Under the pieces are notes generated by a model. That model searched no databases. It was not told the origin of the DNA and saw only the letters and a program-made list of their open reading frames with translations. Positions 3,486 through 40,123 of a DNA stretch of 49,763 nucleotides are shown here, one piece after another. Every line of letters begins with the position of its first letter. The first letter of the stretch is position 1. A program made the translations under genes and the position numbers. Location of the stretch: positions 1 to 49,763 of IMG/VR virus record IMGVR_UViG_3300042881_003518; one strand, written 5' to 3'. The DNA is from a virus.

Positions 3486-4574
3486 TAAAAAAAATATATG
3501 GGAACAAGTTATTCAAAATTAAGACATATTCAAGAAGCTAATCTAAGATTAGAACAAGAACACCTTTTCGAACTAAGAGGTAATTATAAAGCTATAAGAG
3601 CTGGAAATAAGGCAAACATTCAAGCTAGACTTCAAAATGTAGCAGGGGCGACAAAACTTATGCAAAATCCAAAATTACAAGGATTGCTTGCTCAAGTAAA
3701 ATCTAGAAAAAGTACTTTAGATAAACAATTAACTTATTTAAATACTGAATTAAATAATGTTTTAGCCGAAATTGCGCAATTAAAAACTACAAGACCTGAT
3801 TTTGCAGCTGAAGCTGGACAACTAGAAACGGTAATAAAGGCTTATCAAACTGCGATTGCAACTATGTTAGAAGCTGGTAAACCAATTGAAACATTTGCTT
3901 ATCAAGCAGCACCAACTACAACAACACAAACAACACAAGCACAACAAACAACAGAAACGCAGCCGCAACCTATAACAACACAAGCGAGTAATACTATTGG
4001 GGCTAAAGGATTAAATACATATCAATCAGTACAAAACAGAATGAGTCAAACATTACCAAAATTTAATACTAGTACAACTAGATAATTTTTATATTTTAAA
4101 AAAAATACATGGGAACAAGTTATTCAAAATTAAGACATATTCAAGAAGCTAATCTAAGATTAGAACAAGAACACCTTTTCGAACTAAGAGGTAATTATAA
4201 AGCTAAAAGAGCTGGAACTAAGGCAAATATTCAAGCTAGACTTCAAAATGTAGGAGGAACAACAAAACTTATGCAAAATCCAAAATTACAAGGATTGCTC
4301 GCTCAAGTAAAATCTAGAAAAAGTACTTTAGATAAACAATTAACTTATTTAAATACTGAATTAAATAATGTTTTAACTGAAGTAGAACAATTAAAAACTA
4401 CAAGACCTGATTTTGCACCTGAAGCAGGACAACTAGAAACTGTAATAAAGACTTATCAAACTGCGATTGCAACTATGTTAGAAGCTGGTAAACCAATTGA
4501 AACATTTGCTTATCAAGCAGCACCAACTACAACAACACAAACAACACAAGCACAACAAACAACGGAAACGCAAT
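3486..4574 (+). repeat. Tandem duplication of a ~480-bp coding unit
   Basis: 3486-3963 and 4097-4574 are near-identical copies offset by 611 bp. Similarity starts in the A-rich leader just before each ATG and stops abruptly in the Thr/Gln-rich linker (around codon 155), after which the two genes have unrelated tails. Confidence 0.9.
3498..4085 (+). CDS. Tandem-duplicated coiled-coil protein, copy 1 (195 aa)
   Basis: The protein starts MGTSYSKLRHIQEANLRLEQ. IQE|A would suit a gp21-type prohead protease. A long helical/coiled-coil region covers residues ~15-130 and a Thr/Gln-rich disordered linker ~135-165. The short C-terminal tail ends KFNTSTTR and is unique to this copy. The body is ~90% identical to the gene that follows. 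It may be a virion or internal-head protein, judged only from the tag-like N terminus and the late-type promoter box. I do not recognise a family. Confidence 0.8.
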   Translation: MGTSYSKLRHIQEANLRLEQEHLFELRGNYKAIRAGNKANIQARLQNVAGATKLMQNPKLQGLLAQVKSRKSTLDKQLTYLNTELNNVLAEIAQLKTTRPDFAAEAGQLETVIKAYQTAIATMLEAGKPIETFAYQAAPTTTTQTTQAQQTTETQPQPITTQASNTIGAKGLNTYQSVQNRMSQTLPKFNTSTTR

Positions 4575-4768
4575 CAAATATACTAACACCTGAAGAACAA
4601 GAATTTTTAAAAAAATATCCAGGAATGACTTTAGACCAAGCTAAAGAAGCTGAATGGAATGCAGCAAATAATAATCCTATGAATTATAATCCTGATTATT
4701 CAGCTAATCAAGCACAAATTAATGCACAACTTAATTTAGGTCAACAAGGCGGTTATCCTGTTCAGTAA
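4109..4768 (+). CDS. Tandem-duplicated coiled-coil protein, copy 2 (219 aa)
   Basis: This paralogue of the preceding gene shares the first ~155 residues with few substitutions. It then carries a different, longer tail with the segment LTPEEQEFLKKYPGMTLDQAK and an Asn/Gln-rich end. The tail contains a small helix that looks like a peptide-binding or dimerisation element, but I cannot name it. It is followed by a strong terminator. The divergence only of tails suggests that the shared body has a common partner while the tail sets specificity. Confidence 0.8.
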   Translation: MGTSYSKLRHIQEANLRLEQEHLFELRGNYKAKRAGTKANIQARLQNVGGTTKLMQNPKLQGLLAQVKSRKSTLDKQLTYLNTELNNVLTEVEQLKTTRPDFAPEAGQLETVIKTYQTAIATMLEAGKPIETFAYQAAPTTTTQTTQAQQTTETQSNILTPEEQEFLKKYPGMTLDQAKEAEWNAANNNPMNYNPDYSANQAQINAQLNLGQQGGYPVQ

Positions 4769-7451: not shown

Positions 7452-8255
7452 ATGAAAACATTTGTAGTATTGTTGATTGTAGTTGCAATAACAATTTTTA
7501 AAGGTGGCGATACTAAATTTTATCAACCACAAATTAAGATTAGTGTTGATAGTTTAGTTAAAATAGGTTATCCAACAAGAATAAGTGAAAAACTAAAAGT
7601 TGTAATTGAGAATCGAGAAAATAAGGGTAAACATTTTTTTATTGCGGATACCAAAGAAAATTTGATATATTTTTTTAGTCCAAAAGGAAATTTTATCGCC
7701 AAATCACCAACAATAGATGGTGCTGAGAAACAAATAAATAGTGGAATTCAAAAAGAGAAAGCACTTAAATCTTTTTGGGAAACTGTAAATGATATGGGAT
7801 TTAAACACGAAAATGGTAAATGGATTGATTTTACAGGTAAAAATAGAACTTACAATCATAGTCTATTTTATAATTACATAGCTAATTCAAGGACTAGATT
7901 TTTCCCAAGTGGTACTTATAAAATAAGTAAGATTACAACACATACAAATTTTATTGGTGGTGAAGGTAATACTTTTAACATAGTTGATTCAAATAATAAA
8001 GAACTAGCTCTAGCCATACATGGTTTGTATCAAAGTCAATATCGAATTGATAGAATGAATGAATTAACAAAATTAATCAAAACTAGTGTTGATTCTCCTA
8101 AAGTTCCAATTGAATATAGAAAACAAATATTAAACAATATCAATAACACTTACTACAATAATTCATTTGGTTGTGTTAATGTTCCTAAATATTTTTTGGA
8201 TAAAACTAAACATCTGGCGAAAGGTTCATTCTTATTTGTTTTGGATGAGAATTAA
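7452..8255 (+). CDS. L,D-transpeptidase-like (YkuD-type) exported protein
   Basis: The 267-residue protein has an N-terminal hydrophobic segment (FVVLLIVVAITIF) acting as signal or anchor. Residues ~60-110 resemble the opening strands of a YkuD domain (HFFIADTKENLIYFFSPKG). The active-site pattern follows: AIHG with H190-G191, then about 50 residues later SFGCVNVP with C241, close to the canonical H-x(n)-SHGC-x-N. The canonical His of SHGC is Phe here. YkuD enzymes form 3-3 peptidoglycan cross-links or attach proteins via a catalytic cysteine. A second phage protein with the same C-terminal domain follows. It could modify host peptidoglycan during infection or lysis. Confidence 0.7.
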   Translation: MKTFVVLLIVVAITIFKGGDTKFYQPQIKISVDSLVKIGYPTRISEKLKVVIENRENKGKHFFIADTKENLIYFFSPKGNFIAKSPTIDGAEKQINSGIQKEKALKSFWETVNDMGFKHENGKWIDFTGKNRTYNHSLFYNYIANSRTRFFPSGTYKISKITTHTNFIGGEGNTFNIVDSNNKELALAIHGLYQSQYRIDRMNELTKLIKTSVDSPKVPIEYRKQILNNINNTYYNNSFGCVNVPKYFLDKTKHLAKGSFLFVLDEN

Positions 8256-8288
8256 AAAAAAGACACATTATGTGTCTTTTTTTTTTTG
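8255..8288 (+). terminator. Rho-independent terminator
   Basis: AAAAAGACACA and TGTGTCTTTTT form a strong stem around a short TTA loop, followed by a long T run. Confidence 0.85.
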
Positions 8289-8294
8289 ATTTGA

Positions 8295-8302
8295 TATTTA
8301 TG
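8295..8302 (+). promoter_or_regulatory. Putative late promoter box (TATTTATG)
   Basis: GATATTTATG lies 24 nt before the ATG at 8319, right after a terminator, so a new transcript is expected here. Confidence 0.45.
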
Positions 8303-8318
8303 TGATATATTAAATATT

Positions 8319-10178
8319 ATGAAAAATTTATTAAACAATTTATCACAATCTGAAAAAAATAGAATTTTAGAACAATACAATAATTCATTATTGGTTGATA
8401 CTTCTAAATTTAAAAAACTATTGGAATCAAAACTTGGAGATGTTAAACCTCTGATGGAAAAAAAAGAAAATTTAATTCTTCTTAATGAAGAAACAAGTGG
8501 ATTTGATGGTAAATTTTCTTGTGTTAAAAGATTTGGGACACCAAAACCTTCAACAACTTATCCTGGAAAATATTATGTTGAATACATAACAAAAAAAGGT
8601 GAAACACCTCCTTTTCCTATGTTATTTTATGGAACAGATATGACATTCTATGATAATGGTTATTATTATACTAAATTAAGTAGTGGTACTAGATCACCTA
8701 GTAATGAAAATGAGTTTAGAGTATATTATTGCGAAAATGGTTATGTAAAACAAAAAGATGGTATTGTGACTATGGGAAAAACATCAAATACCACAAAAAC
8801 ATCAAATACTACAAAAACACCATTTAAGAACAATACTGAAGGTGATGAATTTAGACAATGGGTAAATAAAAATTATAAGGATATTGCCACGTCTTTATTA
8901 GACTTGGATCCAATTGGAAAATTTCCTGATTCATATTATAATCCAACAATTCAAAAAGCTTTGAATCATAAAGTTGGTAACTCTACATTAGGAGAAATAT
9001 TTATGATGCAAAAAATAAAAAAAGGTTTTGGTTTTGATTTTATGGATAAGATTTCAAACGACCCTGTTTCTAAAAACAAATATGAAGATTATGTTGCAAA
9101 ATATAAAGGTAGTAATTGGTATGGTATTGACCCAGAAGCTACTAAAAAATATTCTAAATTTTCAGAAGCTGAACCTGAAGATTATTATGGCACTAAAGGT
9201 TATCAAAAACGTTCAATTGAATTAAATCCAAATATAACTGGAGAATTTTCAGGTGAAGGTGAAAGAATAAATAAAGAAGTTTATTATATTAAACAAAATA
9301 ACAAAAATAAGGGAAAACCATTTTTAGTTGTTGACCCAAGAATGAATATTGTTGCTGCATATAGTTCAAATTATAAATTAATTGATTATTCACAGACAGT
9401 GAAAGGAAAAAATACAGAACTATTAAAACCCCATACATATTCTGATTGGTGTAAAGATAGTAAAGGTATAGAATATAAGGGTGCTTGTATTAAACCTGGT
9501 AAAGAAGCTGAATATGATAGAATTAAGAGTGTTAAAATGTCTGAATTGTCAAACGCTAAAGGAGATTTGAAAAAAATGGAACAAATAGAACAGAAATACC
9601 AATCTGACTTACGTAAGATTAAAGCTTTAGATTATAATGCCTTAATTGGTACTGCTGCGGCTTCACCAGGTGTTTTTGTTGGGGTTGACCCAAAATTTGA
9701 AAAATATGGTACACCCATAGAAGGTATCCCAAATTTAATATCTCTTCAAACACTAGCAGGAGAAACACTACCAACGGCAATACATGGATTAGCTGAACAT
9801 GCAGTTGGAAGGAAAGAGTTTGATAATGAATTAAAGGCTTATTTAAAGAAAGAAAAACAATTTGGAAATATCCCAAAAGAATATGAAGATTTAGTTGAAA
9901 AAATGGCAGATACTAAAAGATATGGGGTGAGTTCTGGATGTTTTAATGTAAGTAATACATTTATACAAAATCCTAAAGTAACAGAAGTACTAAATCTTAA
10001 ACCATATATATTTGTAATGTCACAAGAAGAAGATTATTATCTAGTTCAAATGGATGCTAATCAAGGTACTAAATTCTTTAATGAGTTAAAAGGAGATGGT
10101 GAATTTTGTAGAGATCCAACATCTATAGCAACTGAAGTTGGTGGGCGTCCAATGGATGTTAGAATGGAAATGAGTTAA
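8319..10178 (+). CDS. Large tagged protein with cysteine-pair module and C-terminal L,D-transpeptidase-like domain
   Basis: The 619-residue protein starts with a tag-like helix (NLSQSEKNRILEQYNNSLL). A cysteine-pair module follows at residues 66-140 (FSCVKRF ... YYTKLSSG ... VYYCENGYV; C68 and C138), then a Thr/Asn linker. A YkuD-like C-terminal region runs from about 320: KPFLVVDPRMNIVAAYSS, then TAIHG (H489) and SSGCFNV (C541). The module with C68/C138 recurs in the genes at 35347 and 36625. There is no signal peptide, so export would have to come by injection or lysis. The tag suggests packaging in the head, but this is inference. Confidence 0.7.
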   Translation: MKNLLNNLSQSEKNRILEQYNNSLLVDTSKFKKLLESKLGDVKPLMEKKENLILLNEETSGFDGKFSCVKRFGTPKPSTTYPGKYYVEYITKKGETPPFPMLFYGTDMTFYDNGYYYTKLSSGTRSPSNENEFRVYYCENGYVKQKDGIVTMGKTSNTTKTSNTTKTPFKNNTEGDEFRQWVNKNYKDIATSLLDLDPIGKFPDSYYNPTIQKALNHKVGNSTLGEIFMMQKIKKGFGFDFMDKISNDPVSKNKYEDYVAKYKGSNWYGIDPEATKKYSKFSEAEPEDYYGTKGYQKRSIELNPNITGEFSGEGERINKEVYYIKQNNKNKGKPFLVVDPRMNIVAAYSSNYKLIDYSQTVKGKNTELLKPHTYSDWCKDSKGIEYKGACIKPGKEAEYDRIKSVKMSELSNAKGDLKKMEQIEQKYQSDLRKIKALDYNALIGTAAASPGVFVGVDPKFEKYGTPIEGIPNLISLQTLAGETLPTAIHGLAEHAVGRKEFDNELKAYLKKEKQFGNIPKEYEDLVEKMADTKRYGVSSGCFNVSNTFIQNPKVTEVLNLKPYIFVMSQEEDYYLVQMDANQGTKFFNELKGDGEFCRDPTSIATEVGGRPMDVRMEMS

Positions 10179-11221: not shown

Positions 11222-11575
11222 ATGAGTTGGAAACACACCCTAATTATTGTGGTATCAATTTTGTTCTTAGGTATTATTCTTGGTTATATGATGAATACAA
11301 ATCATCAAGATAACAAGAAATTACAACAACAAATTATTGATGCTGAAAAGAAAACCATAGATTCTCTATATAAAAAATTGGACATAATGAAATTTGAAAG
11401 AGAAAAAATGGAATCCCAGTTGGATATCTTAACTACAAACATTCAAATGAGTGAAAGTAATCTAACATCAAAAATAAACCAATTAAAAATTCAAAACAAT
11501 GTTAAGATTGACGCTATTATTAATAGTTCTAATGACCAACTCTTGGATGGTTTACGCACAAGGTTTAACCAATGA
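11222..11575 (+). CDS. Membrane-anchored coiled-coil protein, i-spanin-like candidate (117 aa)
   Basis: One N-terminal transmembrane segment (LIIVVSILFLGIILGYMM, residues ~7-24) is followed by a long periplasmic coiled coil and the end LLDGLRTRFNQ. Short bitopic proteins with a coiled coil and an 'LR' motif near the end are typical of Rz-type inner-membrane spanins. The next gene starts 77 nt before this one ends, in the +1 frame, as Rz1 does inside Rz. Spanins fuse inner and outer membranes at lysis. No sequence family match can be claimed. Confidence 0.6.
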   Translation: MSWKHTLIIVVSILFLGIILGYMMNTNHQDNKKLQQQIIDAEKKTIDSLYKKLDIMKFEREKMESQLDILTTNIQMSESNLTSKINQLKIQNNVKIDAIINSSNDQLLDGLRTRFNQ

Positions 11576-11990
11576 CACAGACACAATTAAACCCAAAATT
11601 GACTTAATAGTTGTCAATGGTGATACCTCTTTTGTTATCAATAGAAAATTTGCAGATAAAATTGCAATTCAATATGATTCATTGAAAATTGTGACAGCCA
11701 AACTATCTGAGTATAAAATTGTATTGGATGATTGTGTTAAAGTAAAAGACCAATATAAGATAGCCTTGGACAAATCAATGGACATTACAGATATGTTAAA
11801 AAGAGAGGCTGAAACCAAAGACCAAATTGTTCAAGGATATAAGAAAATTGAAGAGTCACAACAAAAGATTATTACCGATTTGAATACTGAATTTCGTAAA
11901 GTAAAAAATAGGAATAAATGGTTAACTGGATTAAGTATTGGTGGGGTAACATTTGGATTTACTTCATTTATCCTTTTACTACTAAAATAA
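11499..11990 (+). CDS. Exported coiled-coil protein with C-terminal membrane anchor, embedded start (163 aa)
   Basis: The start codon lies inside the preceding gene in the +1 frame. The N terminus MLRLTLLLIVLMTNSWMVYA is a good signal peptide ending in the Bacteroidota-like YAQ. A helical coiled coil then runs to residue ~135, and a C-terminal transmembrane segment (LSIGGVTFGFTSFILLLL) follows. Lack of a lipobox cysteine argues against a classic o-spanin. The topology is closer to a unimolecular spanin or a periplasmic tether. The start could also be a later Met (codon 12 or 17), but that would destroy the signal peptide. Confidence 0.6.
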   Translation: MLRLTLLLIVLMTNSWMVYAQGLTNDTDTIKPKIDLIVVNGDTSFVINRKFADKIAIQYDSLKIVTAKLSEYKIVLDDCVKVKDQYKIALDKSMDITDMLKREAETKDQIVQGYKKIEESQQKIITDLNTEFRKVKNRNKWLTGLSIGGVTFGFTSFILLLLK

Positions 11991-12043
11991 GTTTATTATA
12001 TTTTTTAGGTCTTTGGACATAAAAAATTAAATAATTTATTATT

Positions 12044-12358
12044 ATGGGAATTACTTATTTTGCTTTAGGTATGCTCTCGATGTTGGCTCTAATATTTGTT
12101 GGAGTTATTGTTTGGGGTTTGGTTAAGGTACTAAGAATTGAAAGGCAGATTGTTGCCATAAAAGAAAATCAAAGATTTGATGTTGATAATGTTCAACGTC
12201 AATTTGATAGTGTTTATAGAGCTATTGGTGACCACAGAGATGATTCAAATAAGGCTATGGACAACTTGTGGAGAGATATTACTACCAAGTTTGATGAATC
12301 AATACGTTATACCGACAAAAGAATTGATAAAACATTAAATCAAAAAGAAATTCAGTAA
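12044..12358 (+). CDS. Small bitopic membrane protein with coiled coil (104 aa)
   Basis: The N-terminal transmembrane segment (FALGMLSMLALIFVGVIVWGLV) is followed by a charged helical region with heptad character (IERQIVAIKENQ ... YTDKRIDKTLNQ). It is the third membrane/coiled-coil gene in a row, which supports a shared envelope role such as lysis. I do not recognise a family. It ends at a strong terminator shared with the tmRNA. Confidence 0.65.
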   Translation: MGITYFALGMLSMLALIFVGVIVWGLVKVLRIERQIVAIKENQRFDVDNVQRQFDSVYRAIGDHRDDSNKAMDNLWRDITTKFDESIRYTDKRIDKTLNQKEIQ

Positions 12359-15052: not shown

Positions 15053-15080
15053 AAAAAGGGACTATTCAGTCCCTTTTTTC
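15053..15080. terminator. Bidirectional terminator between convergent genes
   Basis: AAAAAGGGACT and AGTCCCTTTTT pair around ATTC. It overlaps the stop of the minus-strand Clp gene and ends both transcripts. Confidence 0.8.
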
Positions 15081-17092
15081 TTTTTTGATTTTTTAACTTC
15101 TTTTTCTTTAAACACTATATTTTCTTCATTGGTTGTGAGTTCATATTTTTCATTCTCAGCAACATTTCCGTTAAGTACTTCCTCTGATATGAAATCTTCA
15201 ATTTTGTCTTGTATGGCTCGTTTTATTGGCCTTGCACCATACGTTTCATCAAATCCAACTTTTGATATTAAATCATAAACAGATTCATCACAAGTTATAT
15301 TATAATTTAATCCATTCAATCTATTAATTAATTTTTCAATTTCAAGTTTTACAATTTGTTTAACTTCTTCTTCTTTCAATGTATTAAATACAATAATTTC
15401 ATCAATACGATTTAAGAACTCTGGGGCAAAAAACTTTTTAAGTTCTTTCTTAAGCATATCCCTTTTTTCTTCCTCCTCAATATAAGAATTTGAACTTGTT
15501 TTAAATCCAACACCAGTTCCAAATTCTTGGAATTTTTTAACCCCAAGATTGGAGGTCATAATTATGATACAATTTTTGAAATTGATTTTTCTTCCTAGTC
15601 CATCAGTAAGATGTCCATCATCCAATACTTGAAGTAATGTTGAGAATACATCTTTATTAGCTTTTTCAATTTCGTCAAATAGAATAACTGAATATGGTTT
15701 ATTTTTAACTTGTTCAGTTAATTGCCCACCTTCATCATAACCAACATAACCTGGAGGAGAACCTATCAATCTTGATATTGAATGTTTTTCTTGGAATTCT
15801 GACATATCAACTCGGATAAGGTTTTCTTCACTACCGAATATTTCTTTGGCCAATTGTTTTGCTAAATACGTTTTACCCACACCAGTTGAACCCAAGAAAA
15901 TAAATGAACCTATAGGTTTACTTGGGTCTTTGATTCCAAGTCTATTTCTACGGATTGATTTGGCAATTTTGGATACAGCTTCAGATTGACCAATGACTTT
16001 GGAAGATAGATTATCAGCCAATGATGAAAGTTTATTTGTTTCATCTGAGTTCATTTTTGATACGGGTATTTTGGTCATATTAGATACAACTTCATAAACC
16101 AATTCAAATGAAATATCTTTCTTCTTGGTTAATAAATCAGATTCAAATTTTTTCTTTTCTGATTCTAATTTATCCAATATTTTTGTTTCTTTATCTCGTA
16201 AATCTGCAGCTTGTTCATAATTTTGACTTTTAACAACCTCAATCTTTTGTTGTTTAATATCCAACGCTTGAAGTTTCAAGTCTTCAATTATTTTAGGCAT
16301 TTTTATTTCCACTTGACTTCTTGCTCCAACTTCATCAATAATGTCAAAAGCTTTATCAGGGAATTCTCTATCAGTGATATATCTTTCAGCCAAATCAACA
16401 CAAAGTTTTAGAATATCATCACTATAACTTACTTTATGATAATTTTCATATTTGTCTTTAACATTAATTAAAATCTGTAAGGTTTCTTCTTTTGTTGAGG
16501 GGTCAACAATTACTTTTTGGAAACGTCTTTCTAATGCCCCATCTTTTTCAAAATTCTTTCTATATTCATCCAATGTTGTCGCACCAATACATTGTATTTC
16601 ACCCCTTGCCAAAGCTGGTTTAAAAATGTTTGAGGCATCCAATGAACCTGATGAATTACCAGCACCAACAATTTGGTGTATTTCATCAATGAAAAGAATT
16701 ATGTTTGGGGCAGATTGTAGTTCTTCAATGATAACTTTCATTCTTTCTTCAAATTGTCCACGATATTTTGTCCCAGCAACAATTGATGTCATATCCAAGG
16801 ACATAATTCTTTTATCCATCAAATTTCTTGGACATTCCCCATTTAATATTTTTAAAGCCAAACCTTCCACTATGGCAGTTTTACCACAACCAGGTTCACC
16901 TATTATGATTGGGTTATTCTTTTTTCTTCTTGATAATATTTGAGCAATTCTTGTTATTTCTCTATCTCTACCTACCACGGGATCCAATTTTCCTTCTTCG
17001 GCAAGTTTGATTAAATCCTTTGCAAAGTTATTTAACACTGGGGTATCACCTTTACCTTTTGTTGAGTAATCTCCATCTTTTGATTCTATCAT
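15062..17092 (-). CDS. clpC: ClpC-type AAA+ unfoldase lacking the N domain
   Basis: The 676-residue protein has two AAA+ modules. D1: Walker A GEPGCGKT (65-72), Walker B ILFIDE (132-137), pore loop AGTKYRGQFE. D2: Walker A GSTGVGKT (401-408), Walker B VILFDE (469-474), pore loop GYVGYDEGG. Between them is a short ClpC-type middle region with a UVR motif (NYEQAADLRDKE, ~291-303), not the long ClpB coiled coil. A VGF tripeptide (528-530) sits where ClpC/ClpA carry the ClpP-docking loop, so it could feed host ClpP. The N-terminal Clp_N repeat that binds adaptors is missing; the chain starts ~20 residues before D1. A UVR protein is encoded divergently next door. Confidence 0.92.
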   Translation of the reverse strand: MIESKDGDYSTKGKGDTPVLNNFAKDLIKLAEEGKLDPVVGRDREITRIAQILSRRKKNNPIIIGEPGCGKTAIVEGLALKILNGECPRNLMDKRIMSLDMTSIVAGTKYRGQFEERMKVIIEELQSAPNIILFIDEIHQIVGAGNSSGSLDASNIFKPALARGEIQCIGATTLDEYRKNFEKDGALERRFQKVIVDPSTKEETLQILINVKDKYENYHKVSYSDDILKLCVDLAERYITDREFPDKAFDIIDEVGARSQVEIKMPKIIEDLKLQALDIKQQKIEVVKSQNYEQAADLRDKETKILDKLESEKKKFESDLLTKKKDISFELVYEVVSNMTKIPVSKMNSDETNKLSSLADNLSSKVIGQSEAVSKIAKSIRRNRLGIKDPSKPIGSFIFLGSTGVGKTYLAKQLAKEIFGSEENLIRVDMSEFQEKHSISRLIGSPPGYVGYDEGGQLTEQVKNKPYSVILFDEIEKANKDVFSTLLQVLDDGHLTDGLGRKINFKNCIIIMTSNLGVKKFQEFGTGVGFKTSSNSYIEEEEKRDMLKKELKKFFAPEFLNRIDEIIVFNTLKEEEVKQIVKLEIEKLINRLNGLNYNITCDESVYDLISKVGFDETYGARPIKRAIQDKIEDFISEEVLNGNVAENEKYELTTNEENIVFKEKEVKKSKKKKGTE

Positions 17093-28410: not shown

Positions 28411-29127
28411 ATGGACTTAAAAATAATTAAACCTGGAGAAATTGGTAAGGGAATTTTAATTGAAAATGACGGATGGATATCTCCAAGAACTGAACATAAT
28501 TCATTTATATTAGAACAAAAATCTTATTTAGATTACTCTAAACCATTTGAATTTTATGCTGTATTACAAAAATACAATACTCCAAATAGAAATGGTAGAA
28601 TTTATCCAGAAAAAATATTAAAGAGAGAGGCAGAGAATTATAAAAAGATGATTCAAAAAGGAACATCTTTATCTGAATTAAATCATCCAGAATCATCTTT
28701 AATTGACCTTGATAGAGTAGCCCATATCATAAATGAAGTTTGGTGGGAAGGCCCAATATTAATGGGTAAATTAAAGTTATTAACAAGTCCAGGATTTCAC
28801 GAGAGAGGTATAGTATCAACCAAAGGTGATATGGCGGCAAACTATTTAAGACAAGGTGTTACTCTAGGTATATCTTCTCGTGGTGTTGGGTCACTTAAAA
28901 AAGTTGGAGAACAAAATGAAGTTCAAGATGATTTTGAATTAATTTGTTTTGACCTAGTTTCTTCACCATCAACACCTGGTGCTTATCTTTTCTTAAATAA
29001 AGAAGATAGAGCTAGTTTAGATGAGAATTTAGATGATGATAAAAAAATGTCAATTGAAAGGAATGTTGGTGATAGTGGTAATAAATCACTTGATTTAATG
29101 AAAAAATTGTCTAAACTTGGGTATTAG
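28411..29127 (+). CDS. gp21: Prohead maturation protease (T4 gp21-type)
   Basis: The 238-residue serine protease has the T4-type order: NGRIYP near the start, SELNHPESS with His92, and LGISSRGVGS with Ser155/156. FDLVSSPSTPGA follows (D181), completing the usual block. The enzyme is made inside the prohead and cleaves scaffold, core and capsid proteins after [I/L]xE. Its predicted sites include INE|A in the capsid protein and the [I/L/V]xE ends of many N-terminal tags in this window. It lies between core and scaffold genes as in T4. Confidence 0.93.
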   Translation: MDLKIIKPGEIGKGILIENDGWISPRTEHNSFILEQKSYLDYSKPFEFYAVLQKYNTPNRNGRIYPEKILKREAENYKKMIQKGTSLSELNHPESSLIDLDRVAHIINEVWWEGPILMGKLKLLTSPGFHERGIVSTKGDMAANYLRQGVTLGISSRGVGSLKKVGEQNEVQDDFELICFDLVSSPSTPGAYLFLNKEDRASLDENLDDDKKMSIERNVGDSGNKSLDLMKKLSKLGY

Positions 29128-31017: not shown

Positions 31018-32886
31018 ATGGGAGCATTATTAGAAAGCGGTCTTGTTGGTAACATTGGTTTAAAACACCTTAAAGTTATCAAAGAAGATACTATTAACAA
31101 ATGGGATAGATTAGGATTCCTTGATGGCCTTAGAGGTCACCTAAAAGAAAATGTTGCACAGTTATATGAAAACCAAGCATCATTCTTAATCAATGAGGCA
31201 ACAGCTGATGGAAGTTCTGGTTCATTCGAAACAGTTGTATTTCCAATCGTTAGACGTGTATTCTCTAAATTATTAGCAAATGATATCGTATCTGTACAAG
31301 CTATGAACTTACCTATTGGTAAATTGTTCTACTTCGTACCTAAAATCCAAGGTTATCAAGAAAGTAATACTTATGGGCCACCTTCAACTGAATTTTCTGG
31401 TGACCATTATGCACCTGTTGGAGCACCAAATGGTCCTACTAATGTAGGAGCTGGTTATGGTCCTAATGACGCTTATGCTTATCAAAAAAATCTTTATGAT
31501 TTATTTTACGAAGGTAATGAACCTAGTTTAAATCCTGCTGGTCTTTTTGATTATTCAAAAGGTCGTTGGTCAGCAATTACAACTGGTGCTACAGTTCAAG
31601 TTTGGAGTAATGGTCTATTAACTGGTGCTACAGACCAATTTACAGCTAACACTACTATCAGAAAAGTAATCGTTAAACTTTGTGGGTTTGCTAACTTAGG
31701 TGTTGGTAAACTTATCGCACCTGATGGTAATGAAATTGACACAGAATCTTTCTTGTCTGATTTAAAACTTATTGCTGCTGACGCCCAAGGTTCTTCAGCA
31801 TTCTCATCAGATACTTGTGATGCGATATACAATGCAGATGGAAGTAAAAAATCATTATTGTTTAGAGTTGTAACTCAACAATATGGTAAAGGTATTGTTT
31901 CTCCAACATCAACACCAAATAAAACTTCATGGCCTTCTAATGGTGGTGGCGGAACATTCAATGACATTTGTGGTCAAGATGGTTGTATCTATTTAGAAGT
32001 TGACCTTTCTTGTCCAGTATGTGCAACTTGTGATAATTCTAACACAATTGATGGTTACACTGGTACAACTTTAACAAGTACTTTATCTGGAGACGCTTTC
32101 ACAGCTGTTTGGAGAAGATACGAAGAACTTGAATTCGAAGATAAAATTGGTGAAGTTTCTTTCGACCTTGAATCAGTAACTGTTTCTGTAACTGAAAGAA
32201 AACTTAGAGCTCAATGGTCTCCTGAACTTGCTCAAGACGTTGCAGCATTCCATAACATTGATGCTGAAGCTGAATTGACGGCTCTTCTTTCTGAACAAGT
32301 TGCTGCTGAAATCGATAGAGAAATCCTTCGTGACCTTAGAAAAGGTGCGGCTTGGAACTTGAGATGGGACTACAACGGATGGAGAAGAATTCAAAATACA
32401 ACTTCTTACACTCAAAAAGACTGGAACCAAACGTTGATTACTGCTATCAACCAACTTTCAGCTCAAATCCACAAATCAACTCTTAGAGGTGGTGCTAACT
32501 GGATTGTTGTTTCTTCTGAGGTTTCTGCAATCTTTGATGACTTGGAATATTTCCACGTATCAAATGCTTCACCTGAGCAAGACCAATACAATATGGGTAT
32601 TGAAAGAGTAGGTACATTAGCTGGTAGATACCAAGTATATCGTGACCCTTACTTCCCACCTAACCAAGTGTTAATCGGACATAAAGGTACTTCACTTCTT
32701 GATACTGGTTACATCTACGCTCCGTATGTTCCACTTCAATTAACTCCAACAATGTATAATCCATTCAACTTTACTCCTATCAAGGGTATTATGACTAGAT
32801 ACGCTAAAAAAATGGTGAACAACAGATTTTATGCCAGAATTACAGTTGATGGTGTTAGAACATTTGACTTACAAGAATTGAGATAG
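31018..32886 (+). CDS. gp23: Major capsid protein (T4 gp23-type)
   Basis: The 622-residue protein has an N-terminal propeptide ending FLINE|ATADG, giving cleavage after E60 by the gp21-type protease. The gp23 core follows: SFETVVFPIVRRVFSKLLAN, VQAMNLPIGKLFYF and a conserved C-terminal part (RLRAQWSPELAQDVAAFHNI-like text and NPFNFTPIKGIMTRYAKKMV). A Cys-containing insertion (DGCIYLEVDLSCPVCATCDN, ~325-345) may be a lineage-specific surface loop. Codon use is less AT-extreme than in neighbours, as expected for a highly expressed gene. The leader is A/C-rich with no Shine-Dalgarno. Confidence 0.95.
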   Translation: MGALLESGLVGNIGLKHLKVIKEDTINKWDRLGFLDGLRGHLKENVAQLYENQASFLINEATADGSSGSFETVVFPIVRRVFSKLLANDIVSVQAMNLPIGKLFYFVPKIQGYQESNTYGPPSTEFSGDHYAPVGAPNGPTNVGAGYGPNDAYAYQKNLYDLFYEGNEPSLNPAGLFDYSKGRWSAITTGATVQVWSNGLLTGATDQFTANTTIRKVIVKLCGFANLGVGKLIAPDGNEIDTESFLSDLKLIAADAQGSSAFSSDTCDAIYNADGSKKSLLFRVVTQQYGKGIVSPTSTPNKTSWPSNGGGGTFNDICGQDGCIYLEVDLSCPVCATCDNSNTIDGYTGTTLTSTLSGDAFTAVWRRYEELEFEDKIGEVSFDLESVTVSVTERKLRAQWSPELAQDVAAFHNIDAEAELTALLSEQVAAEIDREILRDLRKGAAWNLRWDYNGWRRIQNTTSYTQKDWNQTLITAINQLSAQIHKSTLRGGANWIVVSSEVSAIFDDLEYFHVSNASPEQDQYNMGIERVGTLAGRYQVYRDPYFPPNQVLIGHKGTSLLDTGYIYAPYVPLQLTPTMYNPFNFTPIKGIMTRYAKKMVNNRFYARITVDGVRTFDLQELR

Positions 32887-33718: not shown

Positions 33719-35323
33719 ATGCAAAATAAATTATATTTCCTAGATGAAAGTGAAAGAAGTAGGATACTTAATTTACATGAAAATAGGACTAATAAAAAAT
33801 ATTTGGGTAATAATGTAATATCTGAAATTGAATCATTTATTTGGGGAGTATCAAAAGATGATAAAATTTTATTTACTGAAACTAAAATATTTTTTATGGA
33901 GGGTGAAACTCCAAAATCATTGGAATATAATTTAGAATCACTTCCATATCTTTTAAATGTTTTAAAAAAAGAATACGATAAAAGATTAACCGAAGGTAGT
34001 ATTAATTTGGTTAAATATTTTTCAATCCCTAGAAAATTTTTATCTGAAATTACAAAATCTTTAGATTCTGATATCCATAAAAAAATATTAAAAGAATGGG
34101 ATAACAAATTTAATAATAATTTCCGATTACTTAATGAGAATGTTGAACTAATTACTGAGAGTTTAAAGACCAAAAAATTGTGGGATGAAGTTAGTTTAAT
34201 TTGTGAAAGAACTTGGGCTGAATGGGGAAAACAAACTTGGCAACGTGCAAAAAATGTTGGAAAGGCTATAGGTGGTGCAATCACTAAAGGAGCTAAGGCG
34301 GTTTGGAGTGGAATAAGTAGTGCGGCTAAAGCTATTATAATGCCAATTATAAATCAAGGTGTTATACCATTTTTAAGATGGCTTAGAAGAAATTTAAATA
34401 CATATATGGGGATGATTGTTGATATTGTGGCTTCAATGTTTCCTACATATATTGTTATGAGAATTATTTGGGGATTAATTGTTTTAATGGATATATATGA
34501 AATTTTAAAAAATGATTATGACCCTAAAGATCCATCAAGAAAAGAAATGCCATTTATTGGTTTAATTGGTGATGTATTATCTTTGTTATTTACTGCTGTG
34601 GTAGGAAAAACTACAAAAGCTGCATTAAAGACTGCTATAAAAACAGGTGTGACTAGTGGTACAACAAAAAAAGTTTTAAAACAATTAATAGATAATTTAC
34701 CAAAATTAAAAGGATTTTTGGATAACGCAAAATCGTTTATAGATAAATTTTTTGGTAAAGCGGCTGGAGATATTGTTTCATTTATATTTAATGGTGTTGA
34801 TACAATCATTACCAAATTAATTAATTTCATTAAATCAACATTCAAAATTGGAACAAATATTGCTAAAGCTACAGGAAAAGAATTTGTAACAAAACAAGGA
34901 GCTATTAAATTAGCTTTTGGTGTTGGTGCTGGAGCGGGTATTGGACACTTTATGAAAGAAAAAACATTAAGAGAAGGTCAAATTAGTCCTTTGGTTAAAC
35001 AGGCTAAACAAAGTTTATTATACCTTATTAAATTTCCTGAAGATAAAGGAGGGTTACCTTATGTTAAATACAATGGACCAATTGATGAAAAGTTTGATTC
35101 AAACTTAACAAACGCAATAAAAAAAATACAAACAAGATGGAAATTTCCTATTACGGGTCAAATAAATCCAATTATGGCTATGGCTCTTGGGGTTGATTTA
35201 GGTCCTGGTAATTTAGAAAAACTTATAGGAAAACAAAATTTTGAGAATTTTGGTAAAAAAATGATGGCAGCTAATCAGTACTTGGAAAGTATTTTTGGTT
35301 CAGCTAAAGGAACTTTGGCATAA
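33719..35323 (+). CDS. Tagged, membrane-active-looking protein with C-terminal peptidoglycan-binding-like domain (534 aa)
   Basis: The N terminus MQNKLYFLDESERSRILNLH is a member of the tag family (site LHE|N). The middle (~175-410) is hydrophobic and glycine/alanine-zipper-like: GKAIGGAITKGAKAVWSGIS, MIVDIVASMFPTYIVMRIIW, IGLIGDVLSLLFTAVVG and KLAFGVGAGAGIGHF. The last ~90 residues (LTNAIKKIQTRWKFPITGQI) resemble a PG_binding_1-type helical fold. No signal peptide is present. The layout would suit an ejected protein that enters the host envelope, but no homologue can be named. Confidence 0.65.
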   Translation: MQNKLYFLDESERSRILNLHENRTNKKYLGNNVISEIESFIWGVSKDDKILFTETKIFFMEGETPKSLEYNLESLPYLLNVLKKEYDKRLTEGSINLVKYFSIPRKFLSEITKSLDSDIHKKILKEWDNKFNNNFRLLNENVELITESLKTKKLWDEVSLICERTWAEWGKQTWQRAKNVGKAIGGAITKGAKAVWSGISSAAKAIIMPIINQGVIPFLRWLRRNLNTYMGMIVDIVASMFPTYIVMRIIWGLIVLMDIYEILKNDYDPKDPSRKEMPFIGLIGDVLSLLFTAVVGKTTKAALKTAIKTGVTSGTTKKVLKQLIDNLPKLKGFLDNAKSFIDKFFGKAAGDIVSFIFNGVDTIITKLINFIKSTFKIGTNIAKATGKEFVTKQGAIKLAFGVGAGAGIGHFMKEKTLREGQISPLVKQAKQSLLYLIKFPEDKGGLPYVKYNGPIDEKFDSNLTNAIKKIQTRWKFPITGQINPIMAMALGVDLGPGNLEKLIGKQNFENFGKKMMAANQYLESIFGSAKGTLA

Positions 35324-36624: not shown

Positions 36625-37323
36625 ATGAAAAGATTTACAATAACAGAAAACGAAAGAAAAAACATATTAAAAAGTCATGGTATTCTAAAAGAAGAAGACG
36701 AGGCAACCATAATGTTGGATAAAATCCAAAAAACATTAGGTACTACTAACGATGTTATAATTGGTCCACAAACAACTAAATTAATTGTTTCTGCTTTAAA
36801 AGATGCACCTAGTACAACATCTGATTTTTCTTGTGTTACTAAGTATCCAAATAAACAAGTTGTGGAATATGAAGATGGTAAATATGGTTACAAAATAAAT
36901 AATTTAATATTTGATAAAAGTGGTAATTATTGGGTTGAAAACGATTTGACTAAAAAATATACTTATAAATGTAATGGTACAACAATTCAAACAAGTAATA
37001 ATAATGATATTACAAGTGAAACCAAAAAAGATAATACTGAAGAAATTAAAAAAATGATTACACGATTACGTGATGAACGAGAAGCTAACGATGAACAATT
37101 GAAAAATGCTTTATTAAAAAAATATTCTACAGAAGACATTATAAAAGCAGACCCAAGTTTAGCCCCATTATTTGGTACTACTAGTACTGAAACAAAACCA
37201 GAAGCTAAGGTTGAAACCAAACCACAAATGTCATATGGTGAAATGCTTGGAGATGAGGATAATGTTTTTAGTCCAATTTTAGATAAATTTGGACGTAAAC
37301 CCAATATTACACCTGGTAAATAA
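36625..37323 (+). CDS. Tagged protein with peptidoglycan-binding-like helix and cysteine-pair module (232 aa)
   Basis: It starts MKRFTITENERKNILKSHG and then ILKE|E. Residues 28-58 (LDKIQKTLGTTNDVIIGPQT) resemble a PG_binding_1 repeat. The cysteine-pair module spans 69-117 (FSCVTKYPNKQVVEY, NYWVENDLT, YTYKCNG; C70 and C116). The C-terminal region is Lys/Glu-rich and probably disordered. It starts 4 nt after the previous gene. Its last 17 nt overlap the end of the convergent minus-strand gene. Confidence 0.65.
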   Translation: MKRFTITENERKNILKSHGILKEEDEATIMLDKIQKTLGTTNDVIIGPQTTKLIVSALKDAPSTTSDFSCVTKYPNKQVVEYEDGKYGYKINNLIFDKSGNYWVENDLTKKYTYKCNGTTIQTSNNNDITSETKKDNTEEIKKMITRLRDEREANDEQLKNALLKKYSTEDIIKADPSLAPLFGTTSTETKPEAKVETKPQMSYGEMLGDEDNVFSPILDKFGRKPNITPGK

Positions 37324-38944: not shown

Positions 38945-40123
38945 TTATCTTTGTGTAACTTCACCAGTTGGTGATATTACAATTGGTTTTTGCGGATTTA
39001 TGGTTTGACCTTTTCTAAAAGTATATTTAGTCATATTTAAGTCTTTAATAAAGGTAACCGTACCATCTTGATTTTGGGTAATTGAATTAGAATTTTTAAA
39101 GACATCTGTTGCATTACTAGGAAGTCGGAGTTCAGTTCCAATAGTATATGTTGGTCTACCATATTCATCCTTTGTTTCTTTTCCAACACCAACTGCTTTT
39201 GAAGAAAGTAAAACTTTTGTCGCACATTTATCTAATTGTAAAAGAGGTCTATCTTTACCTTTACCACCTTGTAAACTAGAACAACATCCATGAAATATAA
39301 CATTACCTTCAGGGTCTGTTATTCTTACTTCAGGAACATCATCGTGAGGTTTATCATCAATTCCTTCCAATGATAATAATATTTTGTCAGAGTTACCACC
39401 TATTGCAGTTGCTTGTTCTGAGTTGACTATTAATGTTGCAAGTCTACTCTCACCATCTTTAACATTATTTAAATTAGCTTCACCTATTACAACTCCGTTC
39501 AATTTTACATTAAATCTTGCTTTATCACATCTATGTTTTCCTCTACATGGAAATTCTGCCGTTGCGGGACTTTTATCATAAATAACTTCAATTTTTAGGC
39601 CACTTAGACATAAACCTGGGACATTTAAATCTATAACAACTTCAACAAATCTATCCTTAAATTGATTGCCAGTTCTACCTCTCCAAACATTTGTTCCAAC
39701 TATATTTGGGGTTTGACTAACATTTGGTAAGTTTTCAAGACCTGAATTTTGGAAGTAATTGTTTAGGAATTCAAGCATTTTATTTCTTCTAAGATTTGCA
39801 AGATCCATATCTTTTAAACTGACCTTTTTCTCATTATCGTAATTAGGCGTTGCCGATTCACCCGCTCTTACATCAATATTTAATTTAGTATTAGGATATT
39901 GTTTTAATATCGGTAATAATTGACTATCTAAAGTTGACTTAAATTCATTTTCCTTATCTTTAGTTATTGAGTAAAATCCATCGGCATAAAGTCGCCCTAA
40001 ATTAATTATTTTTTCTTGTTCGTTGGTTTTTATTTTATCTGTTTCTAAGATAACACCATACATACCTAAAATATGTTTTCTGTCTTCTTCAGTAATTATT
40101 ATTCTTTTATTACAACATGTCAT
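38945..40123 (-). CDS. Tagged protein with OmpA-like peptidoglycan-associating domain (392 aa)
   Basis: The N terminus carries the tag (IIITEEDRKHILGMYGVILE|T). Residues ~40-165 resemble an OmpA C-terminal domain: a strand with LNIDVRAGES, the helix start LANLRRNKMLEFLNNY (OmpA pattern LS-x-x-RA-x-x-V-x-x-YL), and a final strand FKDRFVEVVIDL. Residues 172-392 are beta-rich (KIEVIYDKSPATAEFPCRGK, HDDVPEVRITDPEGNVIFHG) and unrecognised. No signal peptide is present, so wall contact would need injection or lysis. It is preceded by a TATTTATA box. Confidence 0.65.
   Translation of the reverse strand: MTCCNKRIIITEEDRKHILGMYGVILETDKIKTNEQEKIINLGRLYADGFYSITKDKENEFKSTLDSQLLPILKQYPNTKLNIDVRAGESATPNYDNEKKVSLKDMDLANLRRNKMLEFLNNYFQNSGLENLPNVSQTPNIVGTNVWRGRTGNQFKDRFVEVVIDLNVPGLCLSGLKIEVIYDKSPATAEFPCRGKHRCDKARFNVKLNGVVIGEANLNNVKDGESRLATLIVNSEQATAIGGNSDKILLSLEGIDDKPHDDVPEVRITDPEGNVIFHGCCSSLQGGKGKDRPLLQLDKCATKVLLSSKAVGVGKETKDEYGRPTYTIGTELRLPSNATDVFKNSNSITQNQDGTVTFIKDLNMTKYTFRKGQTINPQKPIVISPTGEVTQR

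Follow-up and report, generated by a model that had tools for sequence, protein, structure and literature searches.

The window, by which we mean the whole stretch of 49,763 bases analysed here (an IMG/VR record), includes genes for a terminase, a T4-type portal (gp20-type), a gp21-type prohead protease (28411–29127, + strand; phrog_207, E = 6.6e-42) and a gp23-type major capsid protein (31018–32886, + strand; phrog_138, E = 8.6e-67). Relatives of this capsid protein are encoded on at least 599 viral contig stretches; one of the nearest that carry a name is from Flavobacterium phage vB_FspM_immuto, at 42.5% across 38% of the query. The gene content and this kinship indicate a T4-like virus, whose host is likely a member of the Bacteroidota. 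Two adjacent open reading frames, ORF A (7452–8255) and ORF B (8319–10178), lie on the + strand where the initial annotation had placed a pair of L,D-transpeptidase-like proteins. Both genes are present, in the same order, in a sister contig (IMGVR_UViG_3300032304_001472), with 96% identity for A and 76% for B. A terminator-like hairpin of 14 pairs followed by a T-run (8254–8284, + strand) sits between them, so the two genes are probably transcribed as separate units; seven terminator-like sites were detected in the region versus 1.4 expected. The sequence TATAAATA, which we take to be the T4 late promoter core, was counted 31 times over the whole window against 12.7 expected. Since these sites are not positioned at either ORF, we drew no conclusion of late expression for A and B.

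ORF A encodes a protein of 267 amino acids, with a predicted signal-anchor segment (residues 1–19) and a putative YkuD-fold domain (residues about 37–267). The N-terminal segment, MKTFVVLLIVVAITIFKGG (7452–7508, + strand), has a mean hydropathy of 1.96, compared with 1.06 for the best segment in B, and in this respect the annotated signal or anchor was recovered as a sequence feature; a clear signal-peptidase site was not seen by eye. The AIHG motif is invariant in 17 relatives and contains His190-Gly191 (codons at 8019–8024, + strand), and S-F-G-C-V-N is encoded at 8163–8180 (+ strand), with Cys241 at 8172–8174; its Ser238, Gly and Cys241 are also invariant. His190 and Cys241 are 51 residues apart. 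The comparison with the sister contig (dN 0.018, dS 0.149) shows that ORF A is under purifying selection.

ORF B is longer (619 amino acids) and consists of an N-terminal tag, a variable region, a repeat-type domain and a putative YkuD-fold domain. The tag (8319–8495, + strand) combines LSQSEKNRILEQY (type T1) with FKKLLESKLGDVKPL (type T3) and includes two candidate LxE sites, LME and LNE; the sister protein reads PLLNE before G. The alignment with the sister delimits a domain, FKNN..FRQWVNxxYKDIA..LDLDP (8817–8970, + strand), present once in ORF B and twice in the sister, for which the search gave no match beyond the sister. The YkuD-fold domain (9249–10046, + strand) carries AIHG (His489) and S-S-G-C-F-N (Cys541), separated by 52 residues, so that the spacing of about 50 residues noted in the initial annotation holds for both proteins. 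This domain shows a dN of 0.056 and a dS of 0.146 relative to the sister, and the N-terminal part is far more variable. ORF B does not have a signal peptide; therefore, release into the periplasm, and not into the cytoplasm, would be needed for it to meet peptidoglycan.

The designation of both domains as YkuD-like had to be reached indirectly: neither A nor B matched PF03734 up to E = 1, and no YkuD match was obtained for them in direct Pfam, PHROG, NCBIfam or PDB sequence searches. Thus, the profile check against this family failed for the individual sequences, and the part of the claim that stands is supported by a chain of homologues and by the fold. BLASTP aligned residues 39–266 of A with residues 312–569 of B (23% identity, E = 4e-6 in one comparison), which argues that the two domains are homologous and not an accidental pair of motifs. 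Further capsid-related contigs yielded relatives when searched with a profile made from A, B and their sister sequences, and later rounds added more. When the window was left out, a profile of three of these relatives (L088, L101 and L128) detected A (9e-42) and also B (2e-26); the L103–L110 group, used by itself as a profile, found A (4e-9) but missed B. One member of this group, L110, exceeded the PF03734 YkuD cut-off (23.5 versus 23.4 bits, E = 9e-5, positions 2–134 of 146). These results support that A and B are joined to PF03734 through a chain of phage relatives. An hhalign comparison with eight bacterial L,D-transpeptidases was weak (P = 0.005), although the register was correct in the combined alignment. 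No match was obtained with tblastn of A, B and their relatives against named phages or with the family profile against five named phages, and two scans of bacterial genomes gave no relatives.

In the alignment of the family, A-I-H-G and S-x-G-C are invariant in 17 of 17 sequences, with identities to A as low as 24% and several relatives in the range of 24–33%. In addition, relative L147 includes a PG_binding_1 domain between the tag and the enzyme domain (30.9 bits, cut-off 23), and L149 has a similar region at the same place that falls just below this cut-off (22.0 bits). This supports peptidoglycan as the substrate, which may also be that of A and B themselves; the family likely acts on the cell wall. 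We conclude that A and B are tandem members of a divergent, phage-borne branch within the YkuD-fold enzymes, and that this conserved family is genuine.

An AlphaFold2 model of domain A, obtained with the 17 sequences, had a mean pLDDT of 79.7 and a pTM of 0.79, the poorly predicted part being the insertion between His and Cys. The model of domain B, for which four sequences were used, was discarded (pLDDT 39). Structural alignment of the domain A model with PDB chains gave Csd6 as the best match (Z 12.3, 128 residues, 2.6 Å), with YkuD (Z 11.8), Pgp2 (Z 11.4) and then Ldtfm and LdtMt entries among the other top matches; the best 50 rows were all YkuD-fold enzymes, with Z values of 9–12. Foldseek by itself gave a weaker result (best E = 1.3e-3, Pgp2). 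The structure prediction suggested in the initial annotation thus bore out the proposed fold, which is supported for domain A by this model and for domain B by its homology to A. Like other members of the superfamily (PF03734; YkuD 1y7m, LdtMt2), these domains would share the fold and the HG plus S-x-G-C arrangement, a TPxG-like segment before the HG strand and, in some phage relatives, PG_binding_1; they differ in being phage-encoded, in lacking a direct Pfam match and in having F or S in place of the His of SHGC. The distance between His and Cys is about 18 residues in the published motif HXX14-17(S/T)HGC, in contrast with 51–52 in A and B. The group most similar in structure to the domain A model is that of the LD-carboxypeptidases (Csd6, Pgp2, Bd1075), led by Csd6. 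In Csd6 and Pgp2, however, an NTF2 domain lies beside the catalytic domain and the residue two after Cys is Ala, whereas A ends with the YkuD domain, neither A nor B matched an NTF2 domain in the profile search, and both carry Asn at this position.

The initial annotation regarded such an enzyme as unexpected in a phage. This view has to be tempered, since a viral structure library contains LDT-like domains in other phage proteins, among them a P-TIM68 protein, a LysM protein of Virus NIOZ-UU157 and an L,D-TPase protein of Podoviridae sp. ct53O25, which limits the novelty of the pair. The protein of Prochlorococcus phage P-TIM68, a T4-like cyanophage (L158, 6787–8658), has 623 amino acids and a C-terminal LDT-like region with IHSDIDPYGTLGCIG, in which the motif reads IHS...TLGCIG. 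Unlike A and B, here the LDT-like domain forms the C-terminal portion of a large protein, in which no tag of this kind was seen; P-TIM68 gave no match to the A/B family profile or to a YkuD family. To our knowledge, the wall enzymes of phages are known almost entirely as lysins. A literature search that covered few subscription papers turned up no account of a phage L,D-transpeptidase, and the pairing of a putatively virion-packed with a putatively membrane-anchored copy was not found described in the searchable papers.

Regarding the packaging-type tag attributed to the second protein, the first 60 residues of ORF B do match the starts of unrelated proteins from related phages (E = 3.5e-5 to 0.04), and tags of a similar kind occur at the N-terminus of 40 protein clusters whose bodies are mostly unrelated. 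LxE was found within 18 residues after 22 of 23 T1 tags, compared with 21% of control windows, a count that may partly mirror the conserved ending of the tag itself; the LxE counted for B is inside the T3 tag, and either LME or LNE could be the site in this protein. The N-terminal part of the gp23-type capsid protein contains ...FLINE before ATADG, a possible maturation site. In T4, the internal proteins and Alt bear an N-terminal capsid-targeting sequence of 10–20 residues that is cut by gp21, and they enter the host with the DNA (PMC7411985); beyond this sequence, the internal proteins have little in common (PMC3012670). The arrangement in ORF B closely resembles that of T4 IPI-III and Alt in the short common tag, the unrelated bodies, the LxE-type end and the presence of a gp21-type protease in the same phage, and the window protease is a candidate processor of the tag; the comparison is one of tag layout, and it differs in that the cargo of B is a wall enzyme. 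By this analogy, we infer that B may be delivered in virions and that its tag may be cleaved by the gp21-type protease after LxE. ORF A does not have the tag and has a hydrophobic N-terminus in its place, hence A and B appear to be routed differently.

The short N-terminal tags are possibly a general virion-targeting system of these phages. The patterns LxExEKxRILxLH..YLxE, IITESQ and LLESxxGxVKPL are common to many otherwise unrelated proteins, many of the loci are near the capsid gene, and in the window the tagged ORFs include 33719–35323, 36625–37323 and 38945–40123 (− strand). It is also conceivable, though doubtful, that the tag directs proteins somewhere other than the capsid, such as the tail or a phage compartment. 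Many tagged proteins have no assigned location, including that at 33719–35323, which has weak tape-measure similarity and a PG_binding_1-like score of 20.4 bits, below the cut-off of 23; against this, a short N-terminal segment on unrelated bodies, with an LxE end and a gp21-type protease, parallels the T4 internal proteins.

The replacement of the His in SHGC, already pointed out in the initial annotation, was confirmed: this position is F in A, S in B and Y in some relatives, and the canonical (S/T)HGC, with His before Gly-Cys, is found in neither protein. The residue two after Cys is Asn in A and B, and Gly or Asn in their relatives; Asn at this position fits the HGC-h-N form of the canonical motif. 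Bacterial proteins annotated as L,D-transpeptidases also bear SSGC or SNGC; therefore, a protein can be a member without the His of SHGC. The YkuD fold covers LD-transpeptidases, LD-carboxypeptidases and the Lpp amidase DpaA (PMC10653827), and two residues after Cys there is Ala in Csd6 and Pgp2 and Arg in most LD-transpeptidases (PMC8938487). In Tlde1a, the H129A change kept the exchange activity, partly reduced the carboxypeptidase activity and greatly reduced cross-linking (PMC9638812); we read His129, which lies two positions ahead of Cys131, as the His of SHGC. The idea that loss of this His means inactivity was rejected, given the SSGC and SNGC bacterial homologues, the motif invariant in 17 sequences and the Tlde1a mutant. 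In A and B, the lost His and the Asn after Cys are two sequence cues that conflict on the reaction and, together with the SSGC and SNGC homologues, they led us not to commit to 3-3 links. Since cross-linking by Tlde1a leans on the His of SHGC, stem trimming or D-amino-acid exchange would be, by analogy, at least as likely as 3-3 cross-linking.

A plausible reading, although we place it short of even, is that these enzymes are mainly LD-carboxypeptidases or D-amino-acid exchangers, like Tlde1a, which would remove or swap the fourth residue of tetrapeptide stems and so starve host cross-linking or loosen the wall before lysis. The LD-carboxypeptidases Csd6 and Pgp2 are among the best structural matches, the His129 mutant of Tlde1a spares exchange (PMC9638812) at the position that is F, S or Y here, and Tlde1a itself has a YkuD fold with added elements and is delivered by a contractile injection machine. 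Tlde1a differs in that it keeps SHGC, no sequence match between it and A or B was found, and the delivery of B is deduced. Carboxypeptidase activity is disfavoured by the Asn after Cys, where Csd6 and Pgp2 have Ala (PMC8938487), by the fact that no NTF2 domain follows in A, and by the Tyr/Trp D-Ala pocket of the LD-carboxypeptidases (PMC10653827), which was not recognised by eye near AIHG of A or B. It is unlikely that the enzymes form 3-3 cross-links, the activity suggested in the initial annotation, and so reseal the wall after DNA entry or make it stiffer against lysis from without. This activity would agree with the fold, with the invariance of Cys and His, with PG_binding_1 in relatives and with the Asn after GC-h, and repair at the entry site would be a fitting task for a virion-delivered enzyme; but, if Tlde1a H129A is a guide, weaker cross-linking is to be expected where the SHGC His is lost, and nothing in the loci demonstrates a repair role. 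The combined picture of a virion-packaged transpeptidase that re-links the wall at the entry point and a membrane-anchored copy that remodels it during infection appears quite unlikely.

Another use of the fold, attaching proteins to peptidoglycan or cutting them from it in the manner of LdtA-C and DpaA, would anchor a phage product or detach the outer membrane. Alphaproteobacterial annotated L,D-transpeptidases with SSGC or SNGC resemble the phage motif and DpaA has the same fold, but a candidate protein partner was not identified, and we consider this activity very unlikely. A role limited to peptidoglycan binding, with no catalysis left in the domains, would agree with the loss of the strict SHGC motif and with the stretch of about 30 residues inserted between His and Cys; it is made highly improbable by the His, Gly, Ser, Gly and Cys that stay invariant at 24–33% identity and by the purifying selection on A.

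The explanation that we favour, with a confidence somewhat better than even, is that A and B are a diverged pair of phage-specific YkuD-fold thiol enzymes acting on the peptide stems of peptidoglycan, B being delivered by the virion and A being made in the infected cell. The tag of B, laid out like the T4 capsid-targeting sequence, would draw the protein into the prohead, where the gp21-type protease would trim it after an LxE site, and B would be released into the host envelope along with the DNA. A, produced in the infected cell, would be anchored in the inner membrane so that its enzyme domain lies in the periplasm. In both proteins, the Cys, activated by the His of HG, would take the stem, and the acceptor to which it is then passed would be water, another stem or a free D-amino acid. 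The wall would thus be altered at entry by B and during infection by A. If true, these proteins would form a new class of wall editors associated with virions, with a parallel in the T6SS effector Tlde1a. The basis for this view is that the YkuD-fold family recurs across T4-like phages behind a packaging-type tag, sometimes with a peptidoglycan-binding domain and often adjoining the gene of a putatively exported zinc protease. Two small proteins would make it testable how the wall stays intact, or is made ready, when a phage enters.

This neighbouring gene, whose product is a zinc protease of the M54 archaemetzincin type and has a hydrophobic N-terminus, is located 15–43 bases downstream of the tagged YkuD-fold gene in seven loci from six distinct relatives; the protease ORFs include L096 5266–5868, L130 4856–5458, L128 3134–3808, L147 4268–4891, L148 4850–5497 and L149 4816–5388. 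The window, like the 60 kb of the sister contig that were searched, gave no HExGH ORF of this type; instead, both contain ORF A. Also near the YkuD-fold gene, L148 (2914–3519) and L149 (1467–2129, − strand) encode proteins with signal-like N-termini and YDKGHM/FDRGHM motifs that resemble exported DNA/RNA non-specific endonucleases.

Other features were observed in the window and in the sister contig. The adjacent ORFs at 3498–4085 and 4109–4768 have nearly identical starts (MGTSYSKLRHIQEANLRLEQEHLFELRGNYKA), as in a recent tandem duplication. A possible lysis cassette of three ORFs is located at 11222–12358: the first encodes a membrane coiled-coil protein with weak matches to Rz-like spanins, the second overlaps it and has a signal-like start and a C-terminal membrane segment, and the third is a membrane ORF. 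In the sister contig, a ClpB-like gene (L002 9411–11636, − strand) starts with an intein-like C-terminal part (ISNGIVSHNCGKT), whereas the copy in the window (15062–17092, − strand) looks uninterrupted.
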